Assembly: GCA_003135135.1 (NCBI GenBank)
Contig: PLDK01000045.1
Location: 44,968-78,948 of the forward strand
Source: Deltaproteobacteria bacterium
GTDB taxonomy: Bacteria; Desulfobacterota; Binatia; Binatales; Binataceae
Reading direction: 5' to 3'
Length of the DNA stretch: 33,981 nucleotides
The notes beneath the pieces are model-generated. The model worked only from the letters and a program-made list of their open reading frames with translations, did not search any database and was not told the DNA's origin. Made by a program: the position numbers and the translations under genes. This document shows, one piece after another, positions 18,421 through 33,981 of the stretch (its first letter is position 1; every line of letters starts with the position of its first letter).

Positions 18421-19383
18421 ATGAACCTCAATATTTTTCGCGGGCGCCGCATGGCCGCGGCCATCGCGCTTCTGATGCTGACTTGCGGCACGCCGTCGCA
18501 CGCATGTTGCGCGAACCTGTGGGTATCGGTCACCAGCGGCTCAGGCGGCGGCATCGAGTCATACACACCAGGACAACTCGCCAGGAGTGGGCCGGCAACG
18601 CCAATTCATCTGAGCACGTTTGACTCCGCGACAGGTGTTGCATTTGACGAGTCGCATAACCTTTGGGCTGTTGTCGGCGGCGACGAGGTGGTGCGATTCA
18701 CTCCTGAGCAACTCAAGAACCTGGCGCACGATCCGAACCCGACGCCCGGGGTGATCATCAAAAGTGCGTATATGTTCAGATCGCTCTATGGCTGCGGCTT
18801 CGACCCTGAGGGCAACCTGTGGGTAGTGGACGCCGAGCGGGGCTCGATCGATGAACTGTCAGCAGAACAGCTGGCTGCGGGCAGCGGAAATGTAGCGCCC
18901 ACTATAGTGATCACTTCGTCCGATATGAATGGTCCGCAATTTATAACGTTCGACAAAGCTGGGAATGCGTGGGTAGATAGCAAGAAGGGCGATCAGATTG
19001 TCGAATTCTCCGCCGGCGAACTGGCGAGCAGCGGTAACAAGTCGGCCGATATCTTGTTGTCCGACGACGGCGCCTGCACGAACCTCTGCAGCCCAGGAGA
19101 GATCGCGTTCGATCAAAAGGGCAACCTTTGGGTCCCCAACGAAGACGCGAACACGGTCGTGGAGTTTACGAAGGATCAACTGGCCGGCTCCGGCAAACCC
19201 TCTCCGGCGGTGACGTTAAACAGTGGCATCTTTGACGCGCCATGGGGAGCGGTATTCGACAACAGCGGCGATCTGGTGGTTATGAACTACTCCGACGGAA
19301 CGATCGCGAAGTTCGCGTCTTATCAGTTGAAGGCGAGCGGCGCACCGATTCCCGAGGTCGCAGTGACCGGATTGAGTATCTAG
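18421..19383 (+). CDS. Secreted six-repeat NHL/propeller-like protein
   Basis: A 320-residue exported protein. A basic start and hydrophobic core (RRMAAAIALLMLTCG) precede a likely cleavage site at SHA|CC; a lipoprotein reading at LMLTC is less likely. The mature protein is six repeats of about 45 residues. Each has a GNLWV-x-x-like strand, then a (V/I)(V/E)-x-F-(T/S)-x-x-QL-A-SG segment and a hydrophobic strand, for example GNLWVPNEDANTVVEF and DQLAGSGKPSPAVTL. This pattern suggests a six-bladed beta-propeller of the NHL/SMP-30 kind. The function is unknown. ATG 18421, with its GGGAGGAG site, is chosen over the upstream in-frame start at 18298. Confidence 0.72.
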   Translation: MNLNIFRGRRMAAAIALLMLTCGTPSHACCANLWVSVTSGSGGGIESYTPGQLARSGPATPIHLSTFDSATGVAFDESHNLWAVVGGDEVVRFTPEQLKNLAHDPNPTPGVIIKSAYMFRSLYGCGFDPEGNLWVVDAERGSIDELSAEQLAAGSGNVAPTIVITSSDMNGPQFITFDKAGNAWVDSKKGDQIVEFSAGELASSGNKSADILLSDDGACTNLCSPGEIAFDQKGNLWVPNEDANTVVEFTKDQLAGSGKPSPAVTLNSGIFDAPWGAVFDNSGDLVVMNYSDGTIAKFASYQLKASGAPIPEVAVTGLSI

Positions 19384-19481
19384 GGCTATCCCGATCATCT
19401 TCGGACCGGCTTCGTAGCGCCGTGGCGGTCACCGTCAGCGCACTGGGGTTGCGTTCAGCAGTCTCGGCGGCCCGGTGGAAA

Positions 19482-20801
19482 CTAAGCCGGCTTCTCGAAT
19501 GTTTCTTCCATCGCGGCGGCCTCGAGCGAGAGGCCGCGCGTTTCGGGCAGGAAGAGTGCGACGATGATCGCGTTGGGTATCGCGAGCAGGCTCAAGTATC
19601 CGACCACGATCGACAGACCGCCAAGCCGCGCGGCGAGAACCGCGATCAGGGTCTGCGCGGAGACCGCGGCGACCGCGCCGGCGAGCGCGAACCATCCCAT
19701 CATCGCGCCTCGGATCGCGGTGGGAAAAAGTTCGGTGGCCAGCGAATTGCCGCCCACCTGCCCCGCGCTCAGGCCAGCGGTGAAACAGCAATACGTGACC
19801 CCGATCCACAGCCAGCGAAGGCCCAAGTGCGCCGGTGGACCCCAATAGAAGGTGAACGCGCCGAGACTGCTCGCCAGGGCCGCAACGACGATGGTGGGGA
19901 TGCGGCCGTAACGCTCGCAGTTTCGCGCGGCGATCGGAAAGCCGAGCATCCCCACGCCGCCTCCGACCAGCATCAGGACGCTGGCGGCGCTCGGCGCCAA
20001 CCCGACGACCGAGACGAGGTGGAAGTACGCCCAACTGCTGGCCGCGATCCCCGCGATGTTGGCCAGCAACGAGCAGACCAGAATCGTGATCGCGCGGCGT
20101 CGATAGAGCTGTCCGAACACGTCGTAAAAGCTGCTGGCCGAAGTCGTGCCGGCCTCGGCGGCGCGTTGCCAGCGGCCGCTCTCCGGGATGACGCGGGCGG
20201 CCAGCCACAGCGCAGCGACTCCCATCGCCGACGCCAGCACCAGCATCCATCGCCACGAGTAATGAGTCGCCACCATCGGCATCACGATCAGGCACAGCCC
20301 GCTGCCCAGGCCAATCCCCAACCCGGCCCAGCTTTGCCCCCGCGCGCGCTGTTCGATCGCGAGTTCCTCGGCCAGGATCACGATACCGTCGGCGATCGTT
20401 GCGCCGATGAAGGCGTAGAGCGAGATCTCGCACAGCGCGAAGGCCGCGATGTTGGTCGAGAGCGCGGCGGCAAGCGCGCTAACGGAAGTGCCGGCCATGC
20501 ATACCAGCAGCATCCGGCGGCGCCCGACCCGATCGATCATCCGCGAGAGTCCCAGTGCGCCAATCGCCGAGAGCGAAATCCATGCGAACAGGCCCGCGAT
20601 ACCCGACTCGCCAAGGTGAAAGCTCTTCGCGATCCAGGGTGCGCCGATGCCGTTGATCGACATCGTGAAGCCTTCGAAGGCGAGCACGCGCGCGATCGAG
20701 TGGGTCAGCCGGCGATTTTTCAGCGCGATCTCCTCGTCACCGAGGCCGCGCGAAGCTCCAGCATCGTCGGCGGCCGCACTCGCGTCAGGCTGATTGCTCA
20801 T
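19482..20801 (-). CDS. Major facilitator superfamily transporter
   Basis: A 439-residue inner-membrane transporter with about twelve hydrophobic helices. The MFS loop signature appears as RMIDRVGRRRMLLVC after helix 2. The N-terminus carries a 40-residue cytosolic extension rich in Ala and Asp. The layout resembles the metabolite/proton symporter and sugar porter groups, but the substrate cannot be read from the sequence. The GGCGG before an A-run and the ATG at 20801 support the start. It stands alone between the propeller-like protein, which is convergent, and the stress cluster. Confidence 0.85.
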   Translation of the reverse strand: MSNQPDASAAADDAGASRGLGDEEIALKNRRLTHSIARVLAFEGFTMSINGIGAPWIAKSFHLGESGIAGLFAWISLSAIGALGLSRMIDRVGRRRMLLVCMAGTSVSALAAALSTNIAAFALCEISLYAFIGATIADGIVILAEELAIEQRARGQSWAGLGIGLGSGLCLIVMPMVATHYSWRWMLVLASAMGVAALWLAARVIPESGRWQRAAEAGTTSASSFYDVFGQLYRRRAITILVCSLLANIAGIAASSWAYFHLVSVVGLAPSAASVLMLVGGGVGMLGFPIAARNCERYGRIPTIVVAALASSLGAFTFYWGPPAHLGLRWLWIGVTYCCFTAGLSAGQVGGNSLATELFPTAIRGAMMGWFALAGAVAAVSAQTLIAVLAARLGGLSIVVGYLSLLAIPNAIIVALFLPETRGLSLEAAAMEETFEKPA

Positions 20802-20924
20802 TTTTTTTCCGCCACGCGACTGCGAGTGCCCGCCGAGGATGGCTGTCCCGGGCGGTCGAGGCTAAGCGCCGCGCCGGCGGTAATTCGCAATTCGTTTTTC
20901 GTTTCTCGTTGGTGCGCTGTGACC

Positions 20925-21347
20925 TTAAATGCCGCGGCGCGCGATGAGGGCGACGAAGTCTCCTTCGGTGAGGATGCCGACCAGGCGCCCATTTTCGACA
21001 ACCGGAAGGCATCCGATCTTCCGCTCGGTCAGAAGTCGTGCGGCCTCGATTAGAGGGGTATCCGGGCTGGTGGTGACTACCTCGCCGGCCATCACTTCTT
21101 TGACAGAGAGAGTTTCCAGAATCTTGCGCTGAGCGTGCCTGCCATAGCCAAGCGCCTGCGCGAGCGCATCGCGAAACAGATCGCGCTGGCTCACGATACC
21201 GACGAGGATCTGACCGTCGTCATCGACTACGGGCAAATGACGAATTCGTCCCAAGCGCATGATGTCGTCGGCCAGGGTAAGTTTGTCGTTGCGTTTAAGA
21301 GTGGTGGGATCCGATGACATCACGTCGCGGACTTTCAGTTCTTTCAT
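20925..21347 (-). CDS. Two-CBS-domain protein
   Basis: A 140-residue protein made of a CBS domain pair (a Bateman module) and little else. The first CBS covers about residues 7-60 (VRDVMSSDPTTLKRNDKLTLADDIM, HLPVVDDDGQILVGIVSQRDLF). The second covers about 82-135 (VKEVMAGEVVTTSPDTPLIEAARLL, CLPVVENGRLVGILTEGDFV). Such modules usually bind adenine nucleotides and sense energy charge. The GGAGAACTGAGC-ATG context supports the start. It belongs to a cluster with a DksA-like protein and three universal stress proteins, one of which carries a related CBS pair. That suggests a shared role in energy or redox stress. Confidence 0.88.
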   Translation of the reverse strand: MKELKVRDVMSSDPTTLKRNDKLTLADDIMRLGRIRHLPVVDDDGQILVGIVSQRDLFRDALAQALGYGRHAQRKILETLSVKEVMAGEVVTTSPDTPLIEAARLLTERKIGCLPVVENGRLVGILTEGDFVALIARRGI

Positions 21348-21523
21348 GCTCAGTTCTCCAGCATCCAGAGCTTCACAGGCAACCTAAAAGGAATGTAGCG
21401 CCTTCCGTGCTATCGCAAAACCCCAGCGTTGGATCGTCTGATTGGCGCTTTGCACCTTGTTGGCGGCATAATGGACCTCAGTGTTGTAGACGACGATTCA
21501 CGAGCAGCTCGCGGAGAACCTGT

Positions 21524-22000
21524 ATGAAATCGAAGACCGGCGGGGAAACCAAGACATCGCGGCAAAGCCAGGCCGACGCGCGACTGAAGGATCTGAGCAA
21601 GCTCCTTGCGCGGGCGCGCCAGGAAGTGCTCGCTCGAGTACGCGTGCTTCGCAAAGAGGAGCAAGACGACGCGGTGGAACTGCCCGCCGACGACTTGGAC
21701 GTGGCCCGCTCGCTGGAAGATATCGAGACCGACGCCGGCCTGATCGAGCGATACGAATTTCAGCTCAAGGCGATAGACGCCGCGCTTAGCCGGCTCGAAC
21801 GCGGTCGTTACGGAATCTGCGAGAAATGCAAGAAAGAGATCCCGCTCGAGCGGCTGAAGGCCGTGCCGTTCGCCGCGTATTGCATCGATTGCCAGAAGAC
21901 GCGCAACGAGCGCAGACGCCCCGGTGAAGGAGACATCGACGAGCCATCGCGTAATGTCTGGACGCCGCCCGAAGAACTGAAGGAGTCGGTGGAGAAGTAA
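21524..22000 (+). CDS. DksA/TraR-family zinc-finger protein
   Basis: A 158-residue protein with a helical N-terminal coiled-coil region and a C4 zinc finger in the DksA pattern, CEKC then 17 residues then CIDC (about residues 103-125). The typical segment RLERGRYGICEKCKKEIPLERL precedes it. DksA proteins bind the RNA polymerase secondary channel and tune transcription, often with ppGpp. The coiled-coil tip with DDLDVARSLEDIE is acidic, which suits that role. It could also be a YteA/TraR-type relative with its own targets. The ATG at 21524 has GCGGAG eight bases upstream; the frame is open further upstream without support. Confidence 0.82.
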   Translation: MKSKTGGETKTSRQSQADARLKDLSKLLARARQEVLARVRVLRKEEQDDAVELPADDLDVARSLEDIETDAGLIERYEFQLKAIDAALSRLERGRYGICEKCKKEIPLERLKAVPFAAYCIDCQKTRNERRRPGEGDIDEPSRNVWTPPEELKESVEK

Positions 22001-22039
22001 CCCGGTCTGACGCAGCGGCGCGAAACAGAGGAGGCAGCG

Positions 22040-22498
22040 ATGACTCAGCTATTTCGGAGGATCCTCTGTCCGATCGATCTTTCGGAGCACTCGTTGGCGG
22101 CTCTCGACGTCGCGCTAAAACTGGCGCAGCAGAACGACGCCAGGCTGTACTTGCTCAATGTCGCGCCGATGCAAGCCGGCGCGGCCGGCTTCCAGCCGGT
22201 GCCAATGGATCCTTACCCAATTGTTGAGAAGGACAAACGCGAGCAACTGGAAAAGCTCGCGCGGGAACGGATTCCCGCCGCGGTGCGCTGCGAAACGCAC
22301 GTGACAACCGGCGATCCGGCCGAGCAAGTGCTCGAGACCGCACGCGATCTCGATGCCGATTTGATCGTGATGGGCACGCACGGCCGCAAGGGATTGGGTC
22401 ACCTGGCGCTCGGCAGCGTCGCCGAGCGGGTCGTGCGGGAATCACCGATACCAGTTCTGACCGCGCATGCAACCGCGCGCGTTCGAAAGGCCGCTTGA
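22040..22498 (+). CDS. Universal stress protein (UspA family)
   Basis: A 152-residue single-domain universal stress protein. It starts with RRILCPIDLSEHSLAALDVAL and ends with the ATP-binding loop G-THG-RKGLGHLAL-GS, which fits the G-2x-G-9x-G(S/T) rule of nucleotide-binding members. A GAGGAGG site precedes the ATG. It lies 39 bases after the DksA-like gene on the same strand, so the two may be co-transcribed. Its role is probably stress survival or energy-status signalling; the sequence shows no specific partner. Confidence 0.92.
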   Translation: MTQLFRRILCPIDLSEHSLAALDVALKLAQQNDARLYLLNVAPMQAGAAGFQPVPMDPYPIVEKDKREQLEKLARERIPAAVRCETHVTTGDPAEQVLETARDLDADLIVMGTHGRKGLGHLALGSVAERVVRESPIPVLTAHATARVRKAA

Positions 22499-22553
22499 GA
22501 CAGGTGACGGCCGCGTGGCTGCGCGCTTGAGCCGTCAGCTTCGCAGCCTGGAC

Positions 22554-23360
22554 TCATCCCTCGCTGGTTGCCGCTGCGAGCGCATCGCTGGTCGTGATAA
22601 TTCCGACCAAGCGGTCGTCCTCGACGACAGGTAATCCATCGATTTTTCGCTCGCGCATAATACGCGCGGCTTCGCGAATGGGCGTCTGAGGTCCTACGGT
22701 CACAAGCGCCTGGGTGATCGCTCGCTTGGCGGGCGTGTCGTCGAAATGCCCCACAAACGAGCGGATGTCGCCTTCGGTAAGCATCGCGACGACGCGCCCG
22801 TCCTGAAGGACCGGGATGTTCCGGAATCCACCCTCGAGCATCTTTGCGTGAATCGTCGAGAGCTTCTCGTCGATTTGCGCGGTGACAGGACTAGCTGTCA
22901 TCCAGGCGCCGACAAGATGTTTCTGAGGCGCATGTTGATGGACAGTCATTACAGGGCATCGAGCTTCGCGCAGTACGAGTTCGGCTACGCTGCCGAGGAA
23001 GAAACGAGACACGCCGCGGCGACCATGGGTGGACATGACGAGCAGATCCGCACCGATCCCGCGCTCTGCCTTGAGAATCGACGCGGCGGGTTCGCCCATA
23101 TTAACCATGATCTCGTATTTGATTCCCGCCAGATGCTTGCGCGCGAGTTCCAGAAGGTTGCGGCGCGCCGTGTCCTCCTGCGCCTTGTAGAGATCCACGT
23201 ACACGGGCATCGAAGTAGGCGCTATGACCAACAGGATGGTGTGCAGGACATAAACGGTGGCGTCGAAATGTCGCGCGATTTCCGCCGCGGTCTCGAGCGC
23301 CGCGATCGAGTTTTCGTCGAAATCCACCGGACACAGAATTTTGCGATACGGCAGAGACAT
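22554..23360 (-). CDS. Universal stress protein fused to a CBS domain pair
   Basis: A 268-residue protein. Residues 1-145 or so form a Usp domain (RKILCPVDFDENSIAALETAAEIA to SVAELVLREARCPVMTVHQ). Residues 150-265 form a CBS pair (IDEKLSTIHAKMLEGGFRNIPVL and ITQALVTVGPQTPIREAARIM). The Usp nucleotide loop reads STHG-RRGVSRFFL-GS, so the first glycine is serine, which may alter ATP binding. The fusion joins two adenylate-sensing modules. An AAGGAG site supports the start. It follows the next Usp gene (23373-23819) by 12 bases on the same strand, so the two form an operon. Confidence 0.92.
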   Translation of the reverse strand: MSLPYRKILCPVDFDENSIAALETAAEIARHFDATVYVLHTILLVIAPTSMPVYVDLYKAQEDTARRNLLELARKHLAGIKYEIMVNMGEPAASILKAERGIGADLLVMSTHGRRGVSRFFLGSVAELVLREARCPVMTVHQHAPQKHLVGAWMTASPVTAQIDEKLSTIHAKMLEGGFRNIPVLQDGRVVAMLTEGDIRSFVGHFDDTPAKRAITQALVTVGPQTPIREAARIMRERKIDGLPVVEDDRLVGIITTSDALAAATSEG

Positions 23361-23372
23361 GGGAGAACTCCT

Positions 23373-23819
23373 TTACCCGGCGGCCTTGGGATGGATCGTC
23401 AAGACCGGAACCGGCGATTCGCGAACCACACGCTCCGCGACGCTGCCAAGCAGGAAGTGCTTCAAGCCAGTGCGGCCGTGCGTACCCATCACGATCAGGT
23501 CGATGCCTTGTGCAGCGGTGAGATTGAGAATCTCCGGCGCCGCGTTCCCGGTTGCGACGAAAATCTCATGTGAAGCTCCCGCCAGTTTTTCCCGCGCAAT
23601 CACTTCCAACCGGCGGATACATGCTGCTTCAAATTCAGGATTAGGGTTCAGCGCGACGGGCGGCAGTGCGGCGGCGGCAGGTGGCGGCGCGCCGATCACG
23701 GTTAGAAGGTAAACCGTAGCGGAGTTCTGCTTCGCCAGCTGGCAGGCGAGTCCGAGCGCATCCATCGAGTCATGCTCGAAGTCAATCGGACACAGTATTC
23801 TCGAAAAGATCGCGGCCAT
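23373..23819 (-). CDS. Universal stress protein (UspA family)
   Basis: A 148-residue single-domain Usp. It begins FSRILCPIDFEHDSMDALGLACQLA and carries the intact ATP-binding loop G-THG-RTGLKHFLL-GS near the C-terminus. A Pro/Ala-rich insertion (GAPPPAAAALPPVALNP) replaces the usual loop after beta strand 2. It is the first gene of a two-gene operon with the Usp-CBS fusion. Only a weak ribosome binding site is visible before the ATG. The 266 bases upstream, to the divergent methyltransferase-esterase gene, hold no gene I can support. Confidence 0.92.
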   Translation of the reverse strand: MAAIFSRILCPIDFEHDSMDALGLACQLAKQNSATVYLLTVIGAPPPAAAALPPVALNPNPEFEAACIRRLEVIAREKLAGASHEIFVATGNAAPEILNLTAAQGIDLIVMGTHGRTGLKHFLLGSVAERVVRESPVPVLTIHPKAAG

Positions 23820-24085
23820 CTCTGTTAATCCACCCTCAGCGCGTTGCCATGGTTACATCATACTCCGCAACCGGCTGGGAATCAGGGCAGTTTGACAGAC
23901 TTCATTGTGATGAAAGGAGCCAGCGAGCATCAGGCAAGTGGCTCCGAAGGGAGCATCGTAAAGCACTGGATAGATATCGATCACTGAAACCCGTGTGAAC
24001 AGGCGCTTCCGATTCGCTGCCAGCGGTGAAAAGGCGGCATCGCGATTGCTTGCTTCAATGGTAACGGTTCAAGGGAGCGACGCCG

Positions 24086-26071
24086 ATGCAGGATTTCTCG
24101 ATCAAGCGCCAGCGGATGGTAAACGCTCAGATCGCATCCCGCGGTGTCGCGGATGCGGCAGTGCTGCATGCGATGGGAGCGGTTCCTCGCGAGGCATTCC
24201 TTCCGAGCCGACTCGCCGAGTTTGCATACCAGGATACTCCATTGCCGATCGAGGCGGGTCAGACGATCTCGCAGCCGTACATCGTTGCGCTGATGATCGA
24301 ATGCGTCGCGGCAAAGCCGGGTGAAAAGGCGCTGGAAATCGGCACTGGGTCGGGCTACGCCGCAGCCGTACTTTCGCGGATCGTGGACAGCGTCTACACG
24401 ATAGAGCGTCATGAGGAACTCGCGACGATTGCGCGGCGGCGCCTGGCGGAACTGCACTACGACAACATCCATGTTCTCACCGGGGACGGCACCCTGGGAT
24501 GGCCGGAACATGCACCCTACGATGTCATCATCGTGACGGCGGGCGGTCCTCAGATTCCAAAACCGCTGCTCGAACAGCTCCGAGTTGGCGGGCGGCTGGT
24601 AATTCCGGTTGGGTCGTCGTCTTCTCGCGCTCAAGAACTGATACGAGTCACGCGGGTCACGGAGGACCACTGCGAGGAAGAAAATCTTGGTGACGTGCAG
24701 TTCGTTCCGCTGATTGGCGCGCAAGGATGGGCAGACGCATCGGGCCGGACTCCGGCGCGCGCGAGCCGGCCGCAGTCGGTGGCGAAACTCATACGCGAGG
24801 TTGCCGAGCCGATAGGGAACATCGGCGAAGTCGATCTCTCGCCAATCCTGGAGCGGATTGGCGATGCACGGGTTGTGCTTCTCGGCGAAGCGACGCACGG
24901 CACCTCGGAGTTCTACCAGATGCGCGCGCGGATCACTCGCGAGCTGATCTTACGGCGCGGATTCAGAATGGTGGCGGTCGAGGCCGATTGGCCCGACGCC
25001 GCGCGAATCAACCAATACGTGCATCACGCGCCCGCGCGACAGCAGCAATGGAACGCATTCACGCGCTTCCCGACCTGGATGTGGCGTAATCGCGAGACTC
25101 TGGAATTGGTCGAATGGTTGCGCGCCTACAATGCGGAGGTTCGCGAGCCCGAGCTGCGCGCGGGCTTCTATGGACTCGATCTGTACAGTCTGTTCACTTC
25201 GATTCACGCGGTCATCGAATATTTAGGCGGCGTCGATCCGGCGATGGCGGCGGTCGCGCGACAGCGTTACGGCTGCCTGACGCCATGGGAGAACGATCCC
25301 GCCGTGTACGGGCGCGTCGCACTGAGCGATCCGTATCGGATTTGCGAACAGCCGATAGTCGAGATGCTGGGCGATCTGCTGAAGCGCCGAATCGAGTATT
25401 CGGAGCGCGACGGCGATCGATTCTTCGACGCGGTGCAGAATGCGCGCCTGATTGCCGCCGCGGAACAATACTACCGCGTCATGTACTACGGCACCGTCGA
25501 GTCGTGGAACCTGCGCGACCAGCATATGTTCGACACGCTCGAGCGGCTGCTCGAATTTCGGGGCGTCGGCAGCAAAGCGATTGTATGGGCGCACAACTCC
25601 CATGTGGGCGATGCGTCCGCTACGGAGATGGGTACGCGCGGAGAGCATAATGTGGGGCAGCTATCCCGAACTCGGTTCGGCGGCGCAGCGTATCTGCTCG
25701 GATTCGGAACCGATCACGGGACCGTCGCGGCGGCATCGGATTGGGACGGCCCGATGGAGATAAAGCAGGTGCGGCCTGCTCACGAAAGAAGTTACGAACG
25801 GCTGTTTCACGAATCAGGCGTCGCGGCGTGCGCGGTTCATCTGCGCGCGCCCCGGCGCCAGGCGGTACGCGATGAGCTCGCGCCGACTCGCCTCGAACGA
25901 GCGATCGGGGTCATCTATCGGCCGCAATCGGAATTGGAGAGTCACTATTTCCAGGCGTCGCTGCCGCGGCAATTCGACGAGTACATCTGGTTCGATGAAA
26001 CCAAGGCCGTGTCACCGCTATCCGCAGTCGCAACGCGCGGAGTGCCGGAGACGTTCCCATTTGGAGTGTGA
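24086..26071 (+). CDS. Protein-L-isoaspartate methyltransferase fused to an erythromycin-esterase-like domain
   Basis: A 661-residue two-domain protein. Residues 1-215 are an SAM-dependent isoaspartate methyltransferase (Pcm): QDFSIKRQRMVNAQI, YQDTPLPIEAGQTISQPYIVA and the SAM loop ALEIGTGSGYAAAVLS are intact, and it should start repair of damaged Asp/Asn residues. From about residue 230 to the end it is an erythromycin-esterase-family domain with LLGEATHGTSEFYQMRA, MVAVEADWPDA and WAHNSHVGDA, which hold the expected catalytic His and Glu residues. Fusions of this kind are known. Macrolide resistance is not implied, since most such domains have unknown substrates. An AGGGAGCG site supports the start. 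The last 28 codons are duplicated at 27430-27516. Confidence 0.9.
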   Translation: MQDFSIKRQRMVNAQIASRGVADAAVLHAMGAVPREAFLPSRLAEFAYQDTPLPIEAGQTISQPYIVALMIECVAAKPGEKALEIGTGSGYAAAVLSRIVDSVYTIERHEELATIARRRLAELHYDNIHVLTGDGTLGWPEHAPYDVIIVTAGGPQIPKPLLEQLRVGGRLVIPVGSSSSRAQELIRVTRVTEDHCEEENLGDVQFVPLIGAQGWADASGRTPARASRPQSVAKLIREVAEPIGNIGEVDLSPILERIGDARVVLLGEATHGTSEFYQMRARITRELILRRGFRMVAVEADWPDAARINQYVHHAPARQQQWNAFTRFPTWMWRNRETLELVEWLRAYNAEVREPELRAGFYGLDLYSLFTSIHAVIEYLGGVDPAMAAVARQRYGCLTPWENDPAVYGRVALSDPYRICEQPIVEMLGDLLKRRIEYSERDGDRFFDAVQNARLIAAAEQYYRVMYYGTVESWNLRDQHMFDTLERLLEFRGVGSKAIVWAHNSHVGDASATEMGTRGEHNVGQLSRTRFGGAAYLLGFGTDHGTVAAASDWDGPMEIKQVRPAHERSYERLFHESGVAACAVHLRAPRRQAVRDELAPTRLERAIGVIYRPQSELESHYFQASLPRQFDEYIWFDETKAVSPLSAVATRGVPETFPFGV

Positions 26072-26073
26072 CA
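25987..26073 (+). repeat. 87-bp direct repeat, copy 1 (3' end of esterase gene)
   Basis: These 87 bases encode the C-terminal residues from WFDETKAVSPLSAVATRG to the stop codon. They match 27430-27516 at 82 of 87 positions with no gaps. Confidence 0.9.
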
Positions 26074-26274
26074 ATTGTCGCGCGCGGCGCGCGGCTCGGG
26101 GCTTTCGGTCATGGTAAGCGGCGGCGAACGCATTGTCCGTGCGCTGCGCGCCGAATCATCTAACAGACGCGCGGCCCAATTCCGCTCTTGGGATCGGTTG
26201 GGATCAAAGGGTGCGGGCCCGAAAATGCCAGCGCAACATGGCGGACTATCGAAAGCCAAGGCGATTGGTGGGAT

Positions 26275-27033
26275 TTACCGCGCGATTGGCGCTCCCGCCT
26301 TCGCGCAGTCGGATTGCGACAGATTGCCGCTGCGGAACTCCCCCACAGTCATGGTCAGGATGTAGGCGCTGCGCTCGGGGGATTGATTGCCGGCGAGTTT
26401 GAACAATTCAGCCGCATTGCGCGCCGCTTCGTTCGCATCGTGGTCGTTCTTCGGGAAGCCGTAGATCTGAAATACCTTGCACAGCGGTTCGATTCCGCCT
26501 TTGCGGTCGCCTTCGGTCATCGGAGCGTTCCAACTCTCTTCCGGCGAAGCGCCTTCGCTCGGTCCGCTCGTTGCGCCACCGAGGCCGCGCCATATTCCGC
26601 GAACGGGAAAAAGGGTCAGAAACAACACGAACACAGCAGCGATCCATACTCCTGCCTTCAGCTCGGGTGAGAGTTCGCTCCACTCGGAATAGCCACCGCT
26701 CGGCGGTATCGGTCCTGCGCGGACCACCGGCGTGAGGGTACTGCCGCAAAAGCGGCACTTCACCGCCCCAGTTAGGATGAGTTCCCTGCAGTTCGGGCAG
26801 ACCCTGTGTGTGCCAGAACGAATCGTTCGTTCCCGAAGCTCGGATTCGTCCTTCCCGCGCAACAGCAAAATAATTCCGCTGACCAACGGCGAGAGAAAAA
26901 ACGAGAGTAGAAAATAGTCGATGCCAGAGCGACCCCATTGCCTCGCCCAAACCGTGACGGCAACGCATAAGAAAATCCAGAAAAAGAACCCACTTAGCAA
27001 ATTCCAGAAAAGGAGACCGCTTGTCAAATCCAT
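26275..27033 (-). CDS. Zinc-ribbon membrane protein of unknown function
   Basis: A 252-residue protein with two N-terminal membrane helices (about 6-28 and 38-60). A cytosolic zinc ribbon follows with CPNC and CRFC spaced 12 residues apart (VCPNCRELILTGAVKCRFCG). A third helix lies near 128-148 (GVWIAAVFVLFLTLFPV), followed by a soluble C-terminal domain. I do not recognise the C-terminal part. The gene runs opposite to its neighbours and lies between two copies of an 87-bp direct repeat, so it may have been inserted or may be lost by recombination. The ATG is uncontested. Confidence 0.7.
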   Translation of the reverse strand: MDLTSGLLFWNLLSGFFFWIFLCVAVTVWARQWGRSGIDYFLLSFFLSPLVSGIILLLRGKDESELRERTIRSGTHRVCPNCRELILTGAVKCRFCGSTLTPVVRAGPIPPSGGYSEWSELSPELKAGVWIAAVFVLFLTLFPVRGIWRGLGGATSGPSEGASPEESWNAPMTEGDRKGGIEPLCKVFQIYGFPKNDHDANEAARNAAELFKLAGNQSPERSAYILTMTVGEFRSGNLSQSDCAKAGAPIAR

Positions 27034-27581
27034 GGTAGATGTAGCCCTAGAGAACGATATTTTCCGCGCGGGCCGGCGATCCGCGTCTCAAATCAAATTA
27101 GATCGCTAATCGAAATCGATAGCAACCCCCGCACGATCCCAATTCGATCCCAATTGACCCCGACCGACTCGGTGACCCGGCAAATAACGCCGCAATGGCG
27201 CGGGAAATGTCGCGCGCACCGGGACCGGCGCGAGCATTCTTGAGGCCATAGCCTGCTGGGAAGACAGATCGCCGACGCCGAGGCACGCCTGGAAACTGGC
27301 GGCCCGGTGATCACGCGCACGCGCGATGAACGCTGCACCCTCACCTACCTCGCTACGCTCGGCCGCCTCTCCCGTGAAAATAACGGGCGAGGTAAGAAGG
27401 GCGACGATTCAATCACGATCGGCTCGCGTCTGGTTCGACGAGACCAAGGCCGTGTCACCGCTATCCGCAGTCGCGAGGCGCGGAGTGCCGGAGACGTTTC
27501 CATTTGGAGTGTGACATGTAATTGTTGGCGGGATTTCCCGGCTGATAGCTCGTCGCCAAGGATCGCGCGCACGCCATCAGG
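27034..27581. other. 548-nt gene-poor region with hairpin and gene relic
   Basis: No convincing gene is present. The region holds an imperfect 10-bp hairpin at 27366-27392 (CCTCTCCCGT, 7-base loop, ACGGGCGAGG) in sequence that looks like a dispersed intergenic element. The esterase relic lies at 27430-27516. The K+ channel gene starts at 27582 with only a weak ribosome binding site. Confidence 0.55.
27430..27516 (+). pseudogene. Relic of the 3' end of an erythromycin-esterase-like gene (87-bp repeat, copy 2)
   Basis: This stretch repeats the last 28 codons and stop of the methyltransferase-esterase gene with five differences. Four are silent (GAT/GAC, GAA/GAG, GCA/GCG, TTC/TTT) and one changes Thr to Arg. 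A mostly silent pattern means the copy diverged while it still coded for protein, so it is the tail of a former paralogous gene and not a fresh duplication of DNA. No further homology is visible upstream of 27430. Confidence 0.8.
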
Positions 27582-28568
27582 ATGACCCCAACTCGCAGAT
27601 TCGCGCTCGCAGTCTCGCTGGTCGCGGTGATGACCGTAATCGGCGCCGCCGGTTACATCCTGATCGAGCACTGGTCGGTTCTCGACGCCTTCTACATGTC
27701 CGTCATCACCATCTCGACGGTCGGGTTCGGCGAGGTAAGGCCGCTCAGCCCGGCCGGTCGTCTTTTTACGATTGGACTGATAGTCACAGGCGTCGGCAGC
27801 GCGATTTACCTGTTTTCGGTGATTGGAGAACTTGTGGTCGAGGGACGGCTTAGAGAGTTTCTCGGGAAGAGCGCAATGAATCGCAAAATTCACGGTCTCC
27901 AGGGCCATGTCATCGTATGCGGCTTCGGGCGTTTCGGCCGCGCGGTAGTCGAAGAGCTAAATCGCACGGCGGTACCGATGGTGGTGATCGAGGCAGACGC
28001 CGCACGGCAAGCAGAGCTGGATGTTGCCGGCGTGATGCACGTCGTGGGATCGGCGCTGGAAGATTCGGTGCTCGACGATGCCGGGATTGGATCGGCCCGC
28101 GCGATAATCGTCGCAACCGGATCGGATGCGGACAACGTGTACATCACGCTTTCGGCGCGCGAGAAAAATCCGAAGATTCTCATCTACGCCCGCGGCGACT
28201 CGGACGCGGGACTGCGGCGGCTGCGGCTTGCGGGAGCGGACCAGGTGGTCGCGGCCTATCAATGGGCCGGGATGAGAATCGCGGCCAGTATCATCCGTCC
28301 GTCGGTGGTGGATTTTCTGCAACTCTCGGTGCCCGGCCGCGAGTCCGAGGTCGATCTCGAAGAGATCAGGATCTCGCGCGAAAGCCCGGCGGCCGGAAAG
28401 ACGATCGCGGCGGTGGAACGGGAGAATCCGCGGCTTCGGATCGTGGCGTTGAAGCGCAACGACAAAGAGCTCGAGATGATTCCCGGTTCCGAAACGCAGA
28501 TCGAAGCCAATGACTTGCTGGTGGTGATCGGCGAATCGGACAGCCTCAAACGCCTGGCGTCGCTTTAA
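27582..28568 (+). CDS. RCK-gated potassium channel (Kch/MthK-like)
   Basis: A 328-residue two-helix potassium channel subunit. Helix 1 is at about residues 7-28, the pore loop carries the selectivity filter TVGFGE (about 47-52) and helix 2 spans about 60-84. The cytosolic RCK domain begins near 107 with HVIVCGFGRFGRAVVEEL, the nucleotide-binding Rossmann motif, followed by VVIEAD. A TrkA-C domain ends the protein (about 245-328, VDLEEIRISRESPAAGKTIA). The tetramer should conduct K+ under control of a bound nucleotide or ion. It ends 66 bases before a ligand-gated channel homologue on the same strand. Confidence 0.93.
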   Translation: MTPTRRFALAVSLVAVMTVIGAAGYILIEHWSVLDAFYMSVITISTVGFGEVRPLSPAGRLFTIGLIVTGVGSAIYLFSVIGELVVEGRLREFLGKSAMNRKIHGLQGHVIVCGFGRFGRAVVEELNRTAVPMVVIEADAARQAELDVAGVMHVVGSALEDSVLDDAGIGSARAIIVATGSDADNVYITLSAREKNPKILIYARGDSDAGLRRLRLAGADQVVAAYQWAGMRIAASIIRPSVVDFLQLSVPGRESEVDLEEIRISRESPAAGKTIAAVERENPRLRIVALKRNDKELEMIPGSETQIEANDLLVVIGESDSLKRLASL

Positions 28569-28634
28569 GCGCCTGACGGCATTCAAACGAAATTGCCTCT
28601 TTTGAAATTCCGATTGGCATAAAATTATAGAGCG

Positions 28635-29714
28635 ATGAAGAAAGCACTTATTGCGGTCGTGATTGTGGTCCTCATGGGCGGGGCATGGGCGGCGGCCTCC
28701 TCGTCGGGGAACGCGCCGGCGCTGAGAGTGGTCGTTTACGTCGATCCGCCGTTCGTCGCCAGAACCTCGACCGGCTTTGGCGGCTTTACAATCGAGCTAT
28801 GGGAAACGATTGCGGCGGCGAAAGGCTGGAAGATCGAATACGTGGAAGCCAAGACGCTGACAGAACTAATAGACATGGTGAGCGGGGGTCAGGCGCAGGT
28901 CGGGGTGACTGACCTTTTCATCACCAGCAGCCGCCTCGAGAAAATAGATTTTTCCCAGCCCTACTTTGAATCCGGCCTTCAGGTGATGATCGCCTCCGAT
29001 CGGGGAGGCGGCCTGGTTGAACTTTTCAGGGGCCTATATGAATGGGGCCATATGCGAATCTTCGCCATCGCGTTCGGCGCCATGATTTTAGCGACAATTG
29101 TACTGACGATTTTCGATCGTAGGCTGGACCCCGAGTTCCCCCGTGACTGGCTGAGCGGATTGGCGGAATCATTCTATCATGTCATGTCGACGTCCGCGGC
29201 CGGCAGTTCATCTCACAAGCGTCTGGTACCCGGACCTATCGGCTACCTGGTGGCAGGGACCTCTCTGGCGTGCGGCGTGATCGCGATCGCTTACTTCACA
29301 TCGAGTATGACCAGTGTGATGACGATGGACGAAATCCGCGGTCGGATAGGCAGCTTTCAGGATTTGGCGGGAAAAAAGGTGGGCAGCATTGCGGGCAGCA
29401 CCGGCGAGGCCTACTGCCGATCCGCAGGGCTTGACACGCGGACTTTTGACGGCCTCCAGGGCGCAGTTGCGGCGCTTACGGAGCGCCGGGTTGATGCGAT
29501 CGTGTACGATTCGCCGATCCTGCGATACTACAACAGACAGCATCCCGAGCTGCGGCTCAACGAGGTTGGCGCTGTGTTCGAGCCCCAGCAATACGGATTT
29601 GCTCTGCCGTTGAACAGCCCGATTCGTACGGCGATCGATGAAGAGCTGCTCAAGCTACGCGAAGACGGGTACACGAACAGCCTCAATCGGAAGTATTTCG
29701 CTGATACCGAATAG
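28635..29714 (+). CDS. GluR0-like ligand-gated ion channel (bacterial ionotropic glutamate receptor homologue)
   Basis: A 359-residue protein with the architecture of prokaryotic ionotropic glutamate receptors. It has a signal peptide (1-20), the first lobe of a periplasmic solute-binding domain (about 29-122), a membrane helix (about 141-160), a pore loop (about 171-195), a second helix (about 200-225, then TSSMTSVMT) and the second binding lobe (about 238-355, GSFQDLAGKKVGSIAGSTGEAY). GluR0 has a TVGYGD potassium filter. Here the pore segment reads MSTSAAGSSSHK, so potassium selectivity is unlikely. An Arg in the first lobe (SSRLEKIDFSQPYF) and an Asp in the second (VDAIVYDSP) fit amino-acid ligand contacts. 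A TTGAAA-N17-TTATAG promoter just upstream would give an almost leaderless mRNA. Confidence 0.85.
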   Translation: MKKALIAVVIVVLMGGAWAAASSSGNAPALRVVVYVDPPFVARTSTGFGGFTIELWETIAAAKGWKIEYVEAKTLTELIDMVSGGQAQVGVTDLFITSSRLEKIDFSQPYFESGLQVMIASDRGGGLVELFRGLYEWGHMRIFAIAFGAMILATIVLTIFDRRLDPEFPRDWLSGLAESFYHVMSTSAAGSSSHKRLVPGPIGYLVAGTSLACGVIAIAYFTSSMTSVMTMDEIRGRIGSFQDLAGKKVGSIAGSTGEAYCRSAGLDTRTFDGLQGAVAALTERRVDAIVYDSPILRYYNRQHPELRLNEVGAVFEPQQYGFALPLNSPIRTAIDEELLKLREDGYTNSLNRKYFADTE

Positions 29715-29754
29715 ACTGGTCAAAGCGCCGCGCGCGCGGCTGGCGCAGTAGGGG

Positions 29755-31227
29755 TCAGAATTTAGGACAGGTGGCCGGCAGCTGTGCGGAGTCGATGCCT
29801 TCGCACAGCGTGTTGTTCACCGTCAAGTTGCCCTCGGCGTCAAGCGTCACCTTCCAGACGGTGTCGTAGTCGTCGGACGGCCAATCGGGAGCTTGTGGCG
29901 GGCGCGGGACGGCATGCGGGAAATAGGCCGAGATCAGCGCATTTACCGTCGGTTGGATGAATTGGTACGACCACGCCATCAGCACCTTCTGATTGGAGAA
30001 GGTGCCTTCGGTGAAGAAAAAATCACTGGTTGCCGGGACCGAGGTCGTATCGAAGCTGGCGGCCAGACCATAGGGCAAGTTGTTGGCGATTGCGTATGGT
30101 TCGGCGGTCAATGAAGGCGCAACACCCGACCACGAGAAGCCCTCGGTGCCTGGGCTAACCTGAGCGGGGTCGCTCGAATAGACCTGCTGGGGGCTGATTT
30201 TGCCGCGCAGTGCGTTGGGAAGATCCAGCGCGCGCCATTGCCCCGCACAGACATAGTTGCCGTCGCTCCAATATGCCAGCGGATGCGCGTCTGCGTGCCG
30301 AATGATGTAAATGGTTTCGTTGGTGTTGATATTCGCCGGAACTACGGCGCCACCGCTACCGCCAGTCACTTCGATGAGGAAAGGCGTCTGCATCGCGCAT
30401 GGAGTGCTGACCGGCCTCGGCGAAGGCAGCTTAGGGTAGGTGGAAGGCGGGTGCAGATTGCTGTCGAAGGTAACCAGGCTGGCGCTTCCCGACGGCGCGA
30501 TCGAGATCGCATAGATATAGTTGGGACCCGCATAGCCGGCCGGAAGAGTCAGGTTATAAGTTTCCAGCTTGTTGATATTTGCCATCAGGGCGCTGGTGAT
30601 CTCCCAGGGCGCCGAGAAGACATAAAAACCCGGGACGCTTGCCGCGATGATACCGGTTACCAGGGTTTCGTTGTCGCCTTTCTGGTCGCTGAAATCGAGA
30701 CCCTGGCAATTCGGGCAGAATGCTGTCGGCGTAGCAACTCCGGTGGGCAGGGGCACTGCTGACGCATAGGATGCATTGAGCGGGTAGCTGTTGCCGGTAT
30801 ATGGGAAATAATCGGGCGGGAGCGCGCTGGATAGAGTGATGTGGTTGAGCAGGGCGAACTGCTGAATGGTCTCGGGCGCCGCCATATCGGGGTAATTGCC
30901 GGTGGTTTGCAAATGGGTCATCGGTTCGAGCACATAGATGCCGGTTACATTCTTCTTCCCCAATACGTGCCGTCGCAGGAACGTGGCCATCCGGAGCGAC
31001 CGCTGTAAACCGCGATTGGTGAGGTTTGCCGTGCCCGGATTGATGTCCCCGGAAGCTCGGTAAGCCAAATCCTCGCTTACCACGAAGATCAGGTTGATGT
31101 TGTCGGCGCTCAGCGGAGCGGGAGTTGACGCCGCTATTGCATCGGGACCGGAAGAGCTGCCCCATCCTGCGAGCAGCGTCAAGGCAAGGACCAGGAACAG
31201 CGACCGTACAACGGTAGTTTTATTCAT
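29755..31227 (-). CDS. Exported protein with tandem histidine-phosphatase-like repeats
   Basis: About 490 residues from the chosen start. The N-terminus (MNKTTVVRSLFLVLALTLLAGWGSSSG) looks like a lipoprotein signal whose lipobox cysteine is a tryptophan (codon 31162-31164). Two regions resemble the start of histidine phosphatases. The first (INLIFVVSEDLAYR, then ANLTNRGLQRSLRMATFLRR) lacks the RHG motif. The second (ETIYIIRHADAHPLAYWSDG, near residue 310) has RHAD and is followed by WRALDLPNAL and VYSSDPA. A CPNC pair lies between them. Phosphatase activity is therefore uncertain. The frame is open to 31266. The ATG at 31227, close after GGATG, gives the most natural signal peptide. It is convergent with the channel gene and does not overlap the phosphorylase gene. 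Confidence 0.6.
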   Translation of the reverse strand: MNKTTVVRSLFLVLALTLLAGWGSSSGPDAIAASTPAPLSADNINLIFVVSEDLAYRASGDINPGTANLTNRGLQRSLRMATFLRRHVLGKKNVTGIYVLEPMTHLQTTGNYPDMAAPETIQQFALLNHITLSSALPPDYFPYTGNSYPLNASYASAVPLPTGVATPTAFCPNCQGLDFSDQKGDNETLVTGIIAASVPGFYVFSAPWEITSALMANINKLETYNLTLPAGYAGPNYIYAISIAPSGSASLVTFDSNLHPPSTYPKLPSPRPVSTPCAMQTPFLIEVTGGSGGAVVPANINTNETIYIIRHADAHPLAYWSDGNYVCAGQWRALDLPNALRGKISPQQVYSSDPAQVSPGTEGFSWSGVAPSLTAEPYAIANNLPYGLAASFDTTSVPATSDFFFTEGTFSNQKVLMAWSYQFIQPTVNALISAYFPHAVPRPPQAPDWPSDDYDTVWKVTLDAEGNLTVNNTLCEGIDSAQLPATCPKF

Positions 31228-31400
31228 AATCATCCAACGAACCGAGTGTTGACTGGGAGCGTACATGAGTCAATCACTGTGGCGCCTGGTGCGCGTCGAA
31301 GTGCACGACCGCCTTCCTCTCCAAGCTATCGAACGCGCTGCGCAATGAGCGAGCCTCGTCCGCGCAGAATGCGCCGACTCGATGCTGCCGGCATACTCCT

Positions 31401-32918
31401 TTAAGAATCTTCGGCGTAGCGGAGCAGGCGGCGCACGGAATTGGCGTATTCGAGCGCGGCCTGAAGCTGAGCATCGCTTTCGGCGTGAATCTCGAAAATC
31501 GGCTCGCCCCGCATCACAGTATCGCCGACGCTCTTGTAGAGCTTCACCCCCGCGGAAGCATTGGAAGGGGCGCCGGCGCGCTTTGCTATTCGCGATATTT
31601 GCCAGCAATCGATCTGCGCAATCATCCCGGCTTGTCCAGAGGCAAAGTTTCGCCGCCAAGGCGCCGGCGCAGGCATCTCGCGTCGTCCCTGTGCGTCCAC
31701 TATTCGGTCGAACCTTTTGAGCGCGGCGCCAGAATCGAGTGTCCGGCGCGCAGCCTCATAGCCGCGCGAGGCCGGCTCGACTCCGGTCATCTCGAGCAGA
31801 CGACCGGCGAGCATCAGCGACTTTTCGCGCAGATCGGCGGGTGCACCGGGTTCGCATCGGAGAACCGAAAGGACGTCCAGCGCCTCCAATCGCGGTCCGA
31901 TGCCGTAGCCGATCGGGCCGAGCGCCTGGGTCGTCGCAATCTCGAGCCGCAGGCCGATCCGCTCGCCCACGGCCATGAACAACCCGCTGAGATGCTCGGC
32001 AAATTCGGGAGTTTTCACCTTGGCCGAAGACCCGACGGGTATGTCGATCAGAACGTGGGTGGCGCCGGCGGTCTTCTTCTTGGCGAGAATCGAGGCGACC
32101 ATCCGCGCCTCGGTGTCGATCTCCATCGGGCGCTCGACGGTGATCAGGATGTCGTCAGCGGGCGCCAGCTCGAGCGCGCCGCCCCACGCGATGCATCCGC
32201 CAACTTCCTCGACGACCCGATACAGCCGATCCGGCGAGAGCGCGACATCGGCCAGCACCGCCATCGTGTCGCCCGTGCCGGCCGGGCTGGTGATAGCGCG
32301 CGAGGAAGTCTTGGGAACTTTGAGTCCGAGTTCCGCGAGAATCGGGACCAGGATCATGGTGGTTCGGTTGCCGGGAACACCGCCGATGCAGTGCTTGTCG
32401 GCGACGATCGGGCCGCCGAACGTGAGCTGCTCGCCGGTGGCGATCATCGCGAGCGTGAAGTCAGTCAGCTCCGACAAATCAAACTTCTGAAAGGCGCACC
32501 CCAGCACGAACATCGAAAGCTCGACGCGCGAATAGCGCCGTGCCGCGACGTCGGTCAGGATCGCGTCGAAATCCCGGCGTCCAAGGTGTCTTCCCCTGAG
32601 CTTGGCCCTGACCAAATCCACGCTCAGCGGCGCGACCGCGAGGCTTGCGCGGACTTCGGCGCCATCGGGCAAGCCGAGATCGTGAAATGCTTCGTCCGAT
32701 AGTCCGATCTCGTCGGCTTCGAGCAATCCATCGCTGCAGACGTTGAGGACGCCGGTGATTTCGCGCTGTACCCCGCTTTGGCGATCGATGCCGAAGACGC
32801 GTGCCCGGTCGAGCGGGTGCAAGCCCAGGTTTCCATGCCGGACGGCGCGCTCGTGAATGACGATGACGTGCTCGCGCAGCGTGTCGAGCGGTAAGTGTCT
32901 CAGCCGGAAGTGCGTCAC
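31401..32918 (-). CDS. Thymidine/AMP phosphorylase, archaeal type
   Basis: A 505-residue nucleoside or nucleotide phosphorylase. The N-terminal 85 residues form the extra domain of the archaeal-type subfamily. The glycosyltransferase-3 fold then follows with VADKHCIGGVPGNRTTMILVP and TSSRAITSPAGTGDTMAVLA, which carry the phosphate- and substrate-binding residues. The C-terminal pyrimidine-phosphorylase domain contains AGVKLYKSVGDTVMRGEPIF. The reaction is phosphorolysis of thymidine or of AMP/CMP; sequence alone does not separate the two. The start is a GTG seven bases after the stop of the damaged beta-CASP gene, so they form one unit. In several bacteria these two genes flank a PRPP synthetase gene, which is absent here. 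Confidence 0.88.
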   Translation of the reverse strand: MTHFRLRHLPLDTLREHVIVIHERAVRHGNLGLHPLDRARVFGIDRQSGVQREITGVLNVCSDGLLEADEIGLSDEAFHDLGLPDGAEVRASLAVAPLSVDLVRAKLRGRHLGRRDFDAILTDVAARRYSRVELSMFVLGCAFQKFDLSELTDFTLAMIATGEQLTFGGPIVADKHCIGGVPGNRTTMILVPILAELGLKVPKTSSRAITSPAGTGDTMAVLADVALSPDRLYRVVEEVGGCIAWGGALELAPADDILITVERPMEIDTEARMVASILAKKKTAGATHVLIDIPVGSSAKVKTPEFAEHLSGLFMAVGERIGLRLEIATTQALGPIGYGIGPRLEALDVLSVLRCEPGAPADLREKSLMLAGRLLEMTGVEPASRGYEAARRTLDSGAALKRFDRIVDAQGRREMPAPAPWRRNFASGQAGMIAQIDCWQISRIAKRAGAPSNASAGVKLYKSVGDTVMRGEPIFEIHAESDAQLQAALEYANSVRRLLRYAEDS

Positions 32919-32925
32919 AGCCCGG

Positions 32926-33691
32926 TCAGTCTATACGCACTTGCTCGAGATTGCGCGGCACCACGGCGTTCCATCCCAGCTCATGGGTTATGCTCGCGCG
33001 CAGAGCCTCGGATGCGGGCGGCTCACCGTGAACGATATAAACGATCTGCGGCCGAACCGTGGCGAGCTTGAGCCAGTTGATAATTTCCCGCTGATCGGCG
33101 TGCGAGGAGAAGCCGGGGACATCGACAATTTCCGCGGCGACCGGGACGTAGTCTCCCAGCATCTTCACCATCGCAGCGCCGTCGAGCAGCGACCTGCCGC
33201 GAGTTCCCGCGGCCTGAAAGCCGACGAGGATGACAGTGTTGCGGCGGTCGGGAAGCCGTCGTTTGAGATGATGGAGGACGCGGCCGCCAGAAGCCATTCC
33301 CGACGCGGAGATGATGATCATCGGCCCCGACATCGAGTTCAGCTCGATCGATGCCGCGACGGTTTTGATCTCGGTGAGATCCTGGTCATTGAAGAAATTT
33401 TTTGCATGCGCGATGTCGGCGCGGATTTCAGAGCTGCCTCGAGCGATGGCTTCTTCGTAAACCCTCAGCGCCGCCAGCGCCATCGGGCTGTCCACGAAGA
33501 TTGGCGCGCGCGTCGACCGACAACGGCTCCCAGTTCATCAAGCGGAGCTGCTTGAGCCCCTGGAACAGACCGCAATCGACAAGCACACGGCGATCGCCAG
33601 CCGTCAGCATAAACTTGCTGCCTGTGACCGTGCCGGCAGCGCCAAGGAATCGGAGAATCGGAGCTGGTGCATTCACGATGCGGTTCGGCAC
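32926..33691 (-). pseudogene. Beta-CASP metallo-beta-lactamase-fold RNase gene with internal deletion
   Basis: The 5' part (33691 down to about 33510) encodes the N-terminal strand set of an MBL-fold RNA-processing protein: [45 protein letters not shown]. The 3' part (about 33503 to 32926) encodes the end of the beta-CASP domain and the C-terminal motif in another frame: [61 protein letters not shown]. The section between them, which should hold the HxHxDH metal-binding motif and roughly 200 residues, is missing. The junction lies in a GCGCGCG run near 33504-33516. The product cannot be an active nuclease. The GTG at 33691 or one at 33676 would have been the start. Confidence 0.82.
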
Positions 33692-33981
33692 TGGTTCAGT
33701 TTGCCAACCTGAAGAGGTGCGCGCGATTCTGACTTGTCGAATAGAGCCGAAAATCGCAATTTATACCATTAGTTGTGGTTTTGAGGCGGCTGCCCTCTAT
33801 GGCTAGCTTTGTTCCGACAAAAGTCATATCGGCCAAGAGCAGGTGTCGCCCGATTTCGGGCGAGCCGGGCGAGTACGGGAAATCCTGGCGGTTGACCATT
33901 GCGTATGTGTAGCACGCCGAATCGAGCGGCGTCAGGCTGAACTAGGACATCCGCTTAACGAAGGAAGAATCACCTGCGCGG
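33692..33981. other. Terminal 290 nt without a supported gene
   Basis: Only short open frames without motifs or ribosome binding sites are present. The stretch should contain the promoter of the minus-strand beta-CASP/phosphorylase unit, but no clear -35/-10 pair stands out. Confidence 0.4.

Follow-up and report, generated by a model that had tools for sequence, protein, structure and literature searches.

The open reading frame at 28635-29714 of the window (the whole 33,981-nucleotide stretch of DNA that was analysed) encodes a receptor of the prokaryotic iGluR kind whose pore lacks the K+ signature. We propose, with moderate confidence, that it is an amino-acid-gated channel, that its pore would be weakly selective for monovalent ions, cations being likelier than anions, and that it is independent of the K+ channel gene lying next to it. 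Comparison with related proteins indicates that its pore loop marks a scattered bacterial subfamily and is not a decayed filter. The features of the gene are as follows.

28635-29714, + strand: receptor gene, 359 aa, prokaryotic iGluR kind (ORF, Pfam, solved-structure matches and tree)
28635-28709, + strand: hydrophobic N-terminus (residues 1-25), a presumed signal peptide (sequence and AlphaFold2 helix 2-20/21)
28722-29000, + strand: S1 half of the ligand domain, residues 30-122, containing R100 (28932-28934), the alpha-carboxylate Arg
29049-29126, + strand: M1 helix, residues 139-164 in model 2 and 139-160 in model 1
29148-29198, + strand: pore helix as predicted, at low confidence, residues 172-188 (174-188 in model 1)
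29187-29216, + strand: STSAAGSSSH loop, residues 185-194, including G190 (29202-29204), which is invariant
29199-29234, + strand: loop after the pore helix, residues 189-200, without an acidic residue and with K195 and R196
29235-29342, + strand: M3 helix, residues 201-236, in which a gate-like TSSMTSVMT replaces the iGluR SYTANLAAF motif
29346-29702, + strand: S2 half of the ligand domain, residues 238-356, containing D292 (29508-29510), the alpha-amino Asp

The original prediction placed STSAAGSSSH, where GluR0 has TVGYGD, in a protein with the full GluR0 layout. Both points hold: the ten residues are in frame in the ORF, and the Pfam domains, the matches to solved structures and a P segment without K+ signature agree with a GluR0 layout built around a non-K+ pore. 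Pfam and the AlphaFold2 secondary structure together give the order S1-M1-P-M3-S2, in which the two binding-protein halves flank M1-P-M3. SBP_bac_3 spans residues 30-356 around the membrane part (4.1e-19), Lig_chan-Glu_bd, the glutamate/glycine-binding half domain, matches at 1.8e-8, and Lig_chan (PF00060) matches at 3.1e-6 with 27.5 bits, below its curated cut-off of 30.8. Among the members of the receptor's clade (described below) that were scanned, L039 alone lies above this cut-off (39.7 bits), L037 and L099 reaching 25.5 and 22.2 bits. The best solved structures by sequence are the ligand cores of NpGluR0 (1.6e-34) and GluR0 (2e-25). R100 and D292 are invariant in 7/7 aligned proteins and both align with GluR0 residues; in such receptors an Arg in S1 and an Asp in S2 grip the two ends of the amino-acid ligand (PMC2950845). 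Relatives are publicly annotated as 'transporter substrate-binding domain-containing protein', and the window protein is not an ABC-transporter substrate-binding protein, as M1, P and M3 sit between S1 and S2. No Rfam family was found in 26000-31500, and neither a sigma-70-like promoter nor an intrinsic terminator in 28500-29800.

Two AlphaFold2 monomer models agree on M1, the pore helix, a non-helical loop at 189-200 and M3 at 201-236. The block pLDDT of residues 161-200 (the P segment) is 35-54 in these models, and re-entry of P is thus a prediction only. A Foldseek search with the first model returned AMPA receptors as the best matches (7oca, 4.7e-21, 373 columns), and the ligand domain superposed equally well on GluR0 (Z 27.1) and on an engineered glutamine-binding protein (Z 27.0).

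The pore loop and the clade that carries it

The whole P segment of the receptor differs from that of GluR0, and not just the TVGYGD stretch. The window's genome, that of a soil bacterium, is an assembly of 3.7 Mb in 51 contigs, and its closest named relative is Candidatus Binatus soli (Binatia, Binatota), with a receptor identity of 88%. Three other genomes of the genus carry receptor orthologues at 86-88%; three same-genus genomes listed (85-98% complete) lack one, and within the searched family genomes the orthologue was found in this genus only. As the ten loop residues recur in three other species of the genus (two identically, one with S187A), STSAAGSSSH is not a product of chance.

The compared set comprised 86 proteins: that of the window and 85 from genome contigs, the window's phylum/class, Pseudomonadota genomes and plasmids. 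Locus ORFs of at least 290 aa were kept; the window's own copies (L001, L069), L008, L009 and L010, near-identical copies and shorter ORFs were dropped, the last including binding proteins without a membrane part. One genome search matched 14/385 genomes, none of whose loci entering the tree fell in the clade of the window receptor, and another matched 25/398 genomes and placed six loci (L094-L099) in it. From plasmids, 13 were taken among the matches listed (30 of 111 records).

In a maximum-likelihood tree built without the filter columns, from which GluR0 itself is absent, the window receptor falls in a clade of 20 of the 86 proteins with support of 100/100. Its members come from four Binatus genomes, eight plasmids of Alphaproteobacteria, two Salmonella plasmids and six genomes of the phylum of G395, taken as Pseudomonadota since that genome holds the Amylibacter locus; L035 is marked 'other' by the label rule of the tree, yet lies inside the clade. 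The clade, the QAD-type receptors and a further non-K+ group share one half of the tree (96/86), and 22/23 K-type (TVGYGD) receptors lie in the other, L102 alone being in the window's half. The K-type rows are not one clade, as the tree holds five changes between K+ and non-K+ filters, at least three of them forced by starred branches. Read from this tree, the bacterial receptors in our sample are of several filter types on well-supported branches.

The two Salmonella members (L039, L043) are carried on conjugative Salmonella enterica plasmids and are annotated as transporter substrate-binding proteins. The DNA of the Salmonella copy had no relative in complete E. coli genomes, and 25 pattern matches in viral contigs included no true relative. 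Other non-K+ filter types, labelled SGxC, QAxG and TGP here, are found at L025-L029, L047, L110, L119, L020, L045 and L118. Receptor genes also occur in pairs, tail-to-tail in an actinobacterial MAG (L007) and in tandem in G323 (L027/L034), and four stand in a row in G533 (L056, L065, L067, L068).

The P segment of the clade follows the approximate consensus A-E-S-F-Y-x-V-M-S-[I/V]-x-T-[S/T/A]-G-[K/R]...[R/K]-K. Residues W172, G175, A177, F180, V183, G190, G200 and G203 are invariant in 20/20 rows; position 191 is K/R in 16/20 and S in the four Binatus proteins, and position 188 is T in 14/20 and A in six (the four Binatus and two others). The K+ signature is present in 0/20 rows, and Ion_trans_2 (E up to 0.01) matched none of four clade proteins (window, L037, L039, L099), against 7.6e-13 for the K-type receptor L013. 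An acid in columns 189-200 was found in 0/20 clade rows (mean K/R 2.6), 23/23 K-type rows (K/R 1.2), 12/13 QAD-type rows (0.9), 4/6 rows of a third group (0.8), 3/3 TGP-type rows (2.0), and 0/3 and 1/6 rows of two further small groups (0.7 and 0.8); these counts are alignment-dependent, with varying loop lengths, and refer to groups that we drew from the tree, 12 of the 86 rows being ungrouped. Because two other small groups are mostly without acid, its loss is not unique to the clade; as aligned here, it is the basic loop without any acid that is the clade's mark within the sample.

Conduction and ion selectivity

Mean pairwise identity by region was taken over 17 clade rows, one Binatus protein being kept. 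It is 61% in the pore helix plus loop and 61% in M3, compared with 48% in S1, 45% in S2 and 45% in M1. Columns 172-236 stand at 0.61 vs 0.46 for the ligand-domain columns, a difference that 7/20,000 column shuffles reached, and the stretch 185-200 alone is less conserved (55%). The K-type rows have a pore segment at 65% vs 35-43% in S1, S2 and M1, whereas the QAD-type rows lack the contrast (pore 50% vs 43-49% elsewhere, the ligand domain being at 47-49%). Among the four Binatus genes, dN/dS is 0.29 in the P loop and 0.39 over the whole gene, and about 1.0 in M3, where it rests on few changes (38 summed over six pairs). On balance, these patterns indicate a pore under constraint, which speaks for conduction. 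As a separate observation, the start of M3 (29235-29342) in the window is markedly unlike that of its three sisters.

A profile of the clade's membrane part matches solved channels weakly, finding plant GLR3.4 (7lzh) at 1.2e-4 and the end of the K+ channel Lmo2059 at 0.027; in the GLR3.4 match, SHREN faces the basic loop. The corresponding control profiles were stronger, that of the K-type receptors finding Kv3.1 at 5e-14 and GLR3.4 at 7e-14, and that of the QAD-type receptors finding AMPA receptors at 1.6e-12. On the strength of these profile matches, the membrane part of the clade is homologous to solved channels and is the most divergent of the three profile groups. A special kinship with plant GLR pores was considered and rejected, as the K-type control finds the same GLR3.4 chain more strongly.

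The data fit a channel in which the ligand domain would lie in the periplasm and four subunits would surround the pore. Binding of an amino acid would close the clamshell and so pull M3 open. The P segment would enter from the cytoplasmic side as a short helix and a loop, with its narrow point probably near A188-A189-G190, the equivalent of T-S/A/T-G in most relatives. Weak selectivity is expected of a pore without the T-V-G-Y-G cage and the acid after it, and divalent cations should pass less readily given the basic residues at the inner mouth. Our confidence in this best explanation is kept at a middling level because a review of plant GLRs deems the prediction of ions from such divergent loops futile (PMC11479355).

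The protein could instead be a non-conducting sensor, with a membrane part that anchors the ligand domain and dimerizes or tetramerizes it, or that signals to a partner protein. We regard this as unlikely, while giving it some weight: the membrane part matches solved channels poorly, M3 varies among the four Binatus genes and the P segment is modelled at low confidence. What weakens the sensor option is that conservation in the clade peaks in pore and gate (61% for pore helix plus loop and M3 vs 45-48% in S1, S2 and M1), as would be the case for a working pore, and no shared partner gene is apparent by eye in the annotated plasmid neighbourhoods.

Less probable again is a receptor that is permeable to anions or strongly excludes cations, in which chloride or organic anions would pass a four-subunit ring of basic residues. 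What invites this reading is the loop itself, with D/E in 0/20 clade rows at 189-200 and 2.6 K/R, where K-type (23/23) and QAD-type (12/13) receptors keep an acid. However, an acid is also lacking in two other small groups (0/3, 1/6), and its loss is not in itself a sign of anion permeation. The positive-inside rule would lead one to expect basic residues on the cytoplasmic face, and the Q/R-edited AMPA receptor, with an Arg in its filter, stays cation-conducting; both facts count against permeation by anions. Taken by themselves, the basic inner-mouth residues speak equally for anions and for weak cation selectivity. Plant receptors offer a possible analogy, as the review cited above finds an anionic path plausible and points to a conserved Arg in the filter (PMC11479355), but that argument is itself hypothetical. 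If true, such a pore would be an inverted pore remade around a basic, acid-free filter mouth, the reverse of GluR0's ion choice, and this branch would be carried on plasmids as well as genomes.

A ligand-gated K+ channel with an unorthodox filter is very improbable: kinship with the K-type receptors and a filter glycine kept in 20/20 rows would be in keeping with one, but a single Gly is left of T-V-G-Y-G-D and Ion_trans_2 matches none of the four clade proteins. The weakly selective, amino-acid-gated channel remains the reading that we prefer.

The neighbouring K+ channel and the genomic surroundings

The gene upstream of the receptor bears on a further proposal, in which receptor and K+ channel would form a conserved two-gene module that links amino-acid sensing to membrane potential. 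The relevant features are listed below.

27582-28568, + strand: 2-TM RCK K+ channel with ISTVGFGE (TVGFGE filter), assigned by Pfam; a neighbour and not a conserved partner
28570-29752, no strand: receptor stretch absent at the syntenic G243 site (C52)
28587-29746, + strand: stretch common to the receptor locus of L002/G149 (92%), with differing neighbours
28621-29724, + strand: core common to L003 (91%)

The neighbour is a true RCK K+ channel, as had been predicted, with matches to Ion_trans_2 (1.5e-18), TrkA_N (5.2e-29) and TrkA_C (4.4e-14) besides its TVGFGE, and the receptor starts 66 bp after it on the same strand. The earlier reading of the receptor thus stands for its GluR0 layout and non-K+ pore, but its functional pairing with the K+ channel does not. 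The K+ channel is present in 22/30 family genomes searched, the window's included, and the receptor orthologue in the genus only. In both other Binatus genomes tested, the K+ channel orthologue (94% in G243, 92% in G149) lies on another contig than the receptor. Contig C52 of G243 matches the window piecewise over 18502-33941 at 87-93%, and here a 503-aa gene comes next after the K+ channel, the aligned ends lying 58 bases apart with no receptor between. The receptor of G243 lies elsewhere, ahead of what looks by eye like a gene for a cytochrome bd oxidase subunit, and the locus in L003 has the same downstream side; G149 has its receptor near a relative of the 503-aa gene, in a different relative orientation. 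No K+ channel was found within about 4 kb either side of the receptor in L003 (= G826). From 28587 on, the 5' flank accompanies the receptor in L002 as well, and the receptor has three different surroundings in four Binatus genomes (28570-29752; L081 = G243:C52, L002, L003, L012). Inspection of the receptor junctions by eye revealed neither a mobile element nor clear end repeats.

A tblastn search with the K+ channel against 82 other receptor loci (flanks of 1.5-4 kb, often only 1.5) gave one match, L102's own K-type pore, and no K+ channel is listed in nine annotated clade plasmid neighbourhoods, for which the PLSDB gene table is incomplete, L046 being without annotation. The receptor and K+ channel as a conserved unit are refuted by the separate contigs, the empty G243 site and the other receptor loci, and despite the 66 bp spacing on one strand in the window's genome we give the module next to no credence. 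The pair is either local to the window's genome or lost in others, there may be a misassembly at the receptor site, and the position beside the K+ channel looks accidental.

Several further observations concern these surroundings. The receptor is preceded at 3.7 kb by a gene for a trimeric intracellular cation channel in L035, and at 1.1 kb by a CPA2 cation/proton antiporter in L040. Upstream in the window, one ORF (24086-26071) fuses a protein-L-isoaspartate methyltransferase with an erythromycin-esterase domain, and its 3' end recurs just before the K+ channel as an 88-bp direct repeat (94%; 25986-26073 and 27429-27516), both copies of which have matches close to the K+ channel of G243 and of G149. 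The interval 26073-27428 is a second long stretch without counterpart in G243 C52 and holds an ORF at 26275-27033 (- strand) with a weak zinc-ribbon match. The 503-aa ORF at 29755-31266 (- strand) has no Pfam/NCBIfam match, and its Binatus relatives are 73-81% identical.

Comparison with known receptors

GluR0 shaped the view of the first glutamate receptors as K+ channels fused to binding proteins. Like GluR0 (slr1257 of Synechocystis sp. PCC 6803), the window receptor has the order S1-M1-P-M3-S2, with no M4 and no N-terminal domain. Unlike GluR0, which carries a K+ filter, it has STSAAGSSSHKR, and its place in the tree is away from that of nearly all K-type receptors (GluR0 itself not being in the tree). 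GluR0 conducts K+, and a 2026 study reports that it transports K+, has its termini on the outside and plays a part under high KCl (PMC13099474).

Prokaryotic receptors with non-K+ pores have been known as a class since 2010, and the window receptor is, from its sequence, a variant of that class. Ger et al. (2010) described 22 prokaryotic proteins with receptor topology, 12 of which have a K+ filter (Group 1); the other 10, with P regions of no recognised selectivity, form Group 2, which they judged nearer to eukaryotic receptors (PMC2950845). The window receptor, with STSAAGSSSH at 185-194 and no Ion_trans_2 match, falls outside the K+-selective Group 1; with its receptor topology and a P region of no recognised selectivity, it belongs with Group 2, with which it also shares the ligand-site Arg and Asp. 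The basic acid-free loop of the clade is not described for Group 2 in the main text of that paper (PMC2950845). A search of the open-licence PMC literature turned up neither functional work on any non-K+ prokaryotic receptor nor an account of this clade or of such receptors in Binatota.

The QAD-type receptors, as we label them (L004, L044, L086-L089, L104, L115 and others), resemble the clade in their non-K+ pore and share its half of the tree, but their filter keeps an acid (12/13) and their membrane profile matches AMPA receptors. NpGluR0 is perhaps of this type, as we take its own pore to be. Plant GLR3.4 (7lzh) is the sole full-length receptor of solved structure that the clade's pore profile picks up, in a match that is weak and not specific, and plant GLRs additionally have an N-terminal domain and M4, according to their review (PMC11479355). 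Set beside these systems, the clade keeps a constrained pore without either the K+ filter or the acid after it. Its members are small proteins with which to ask which ions the non-K+ bacterial receptors pass, and how selectivity changed in the iGluR family.
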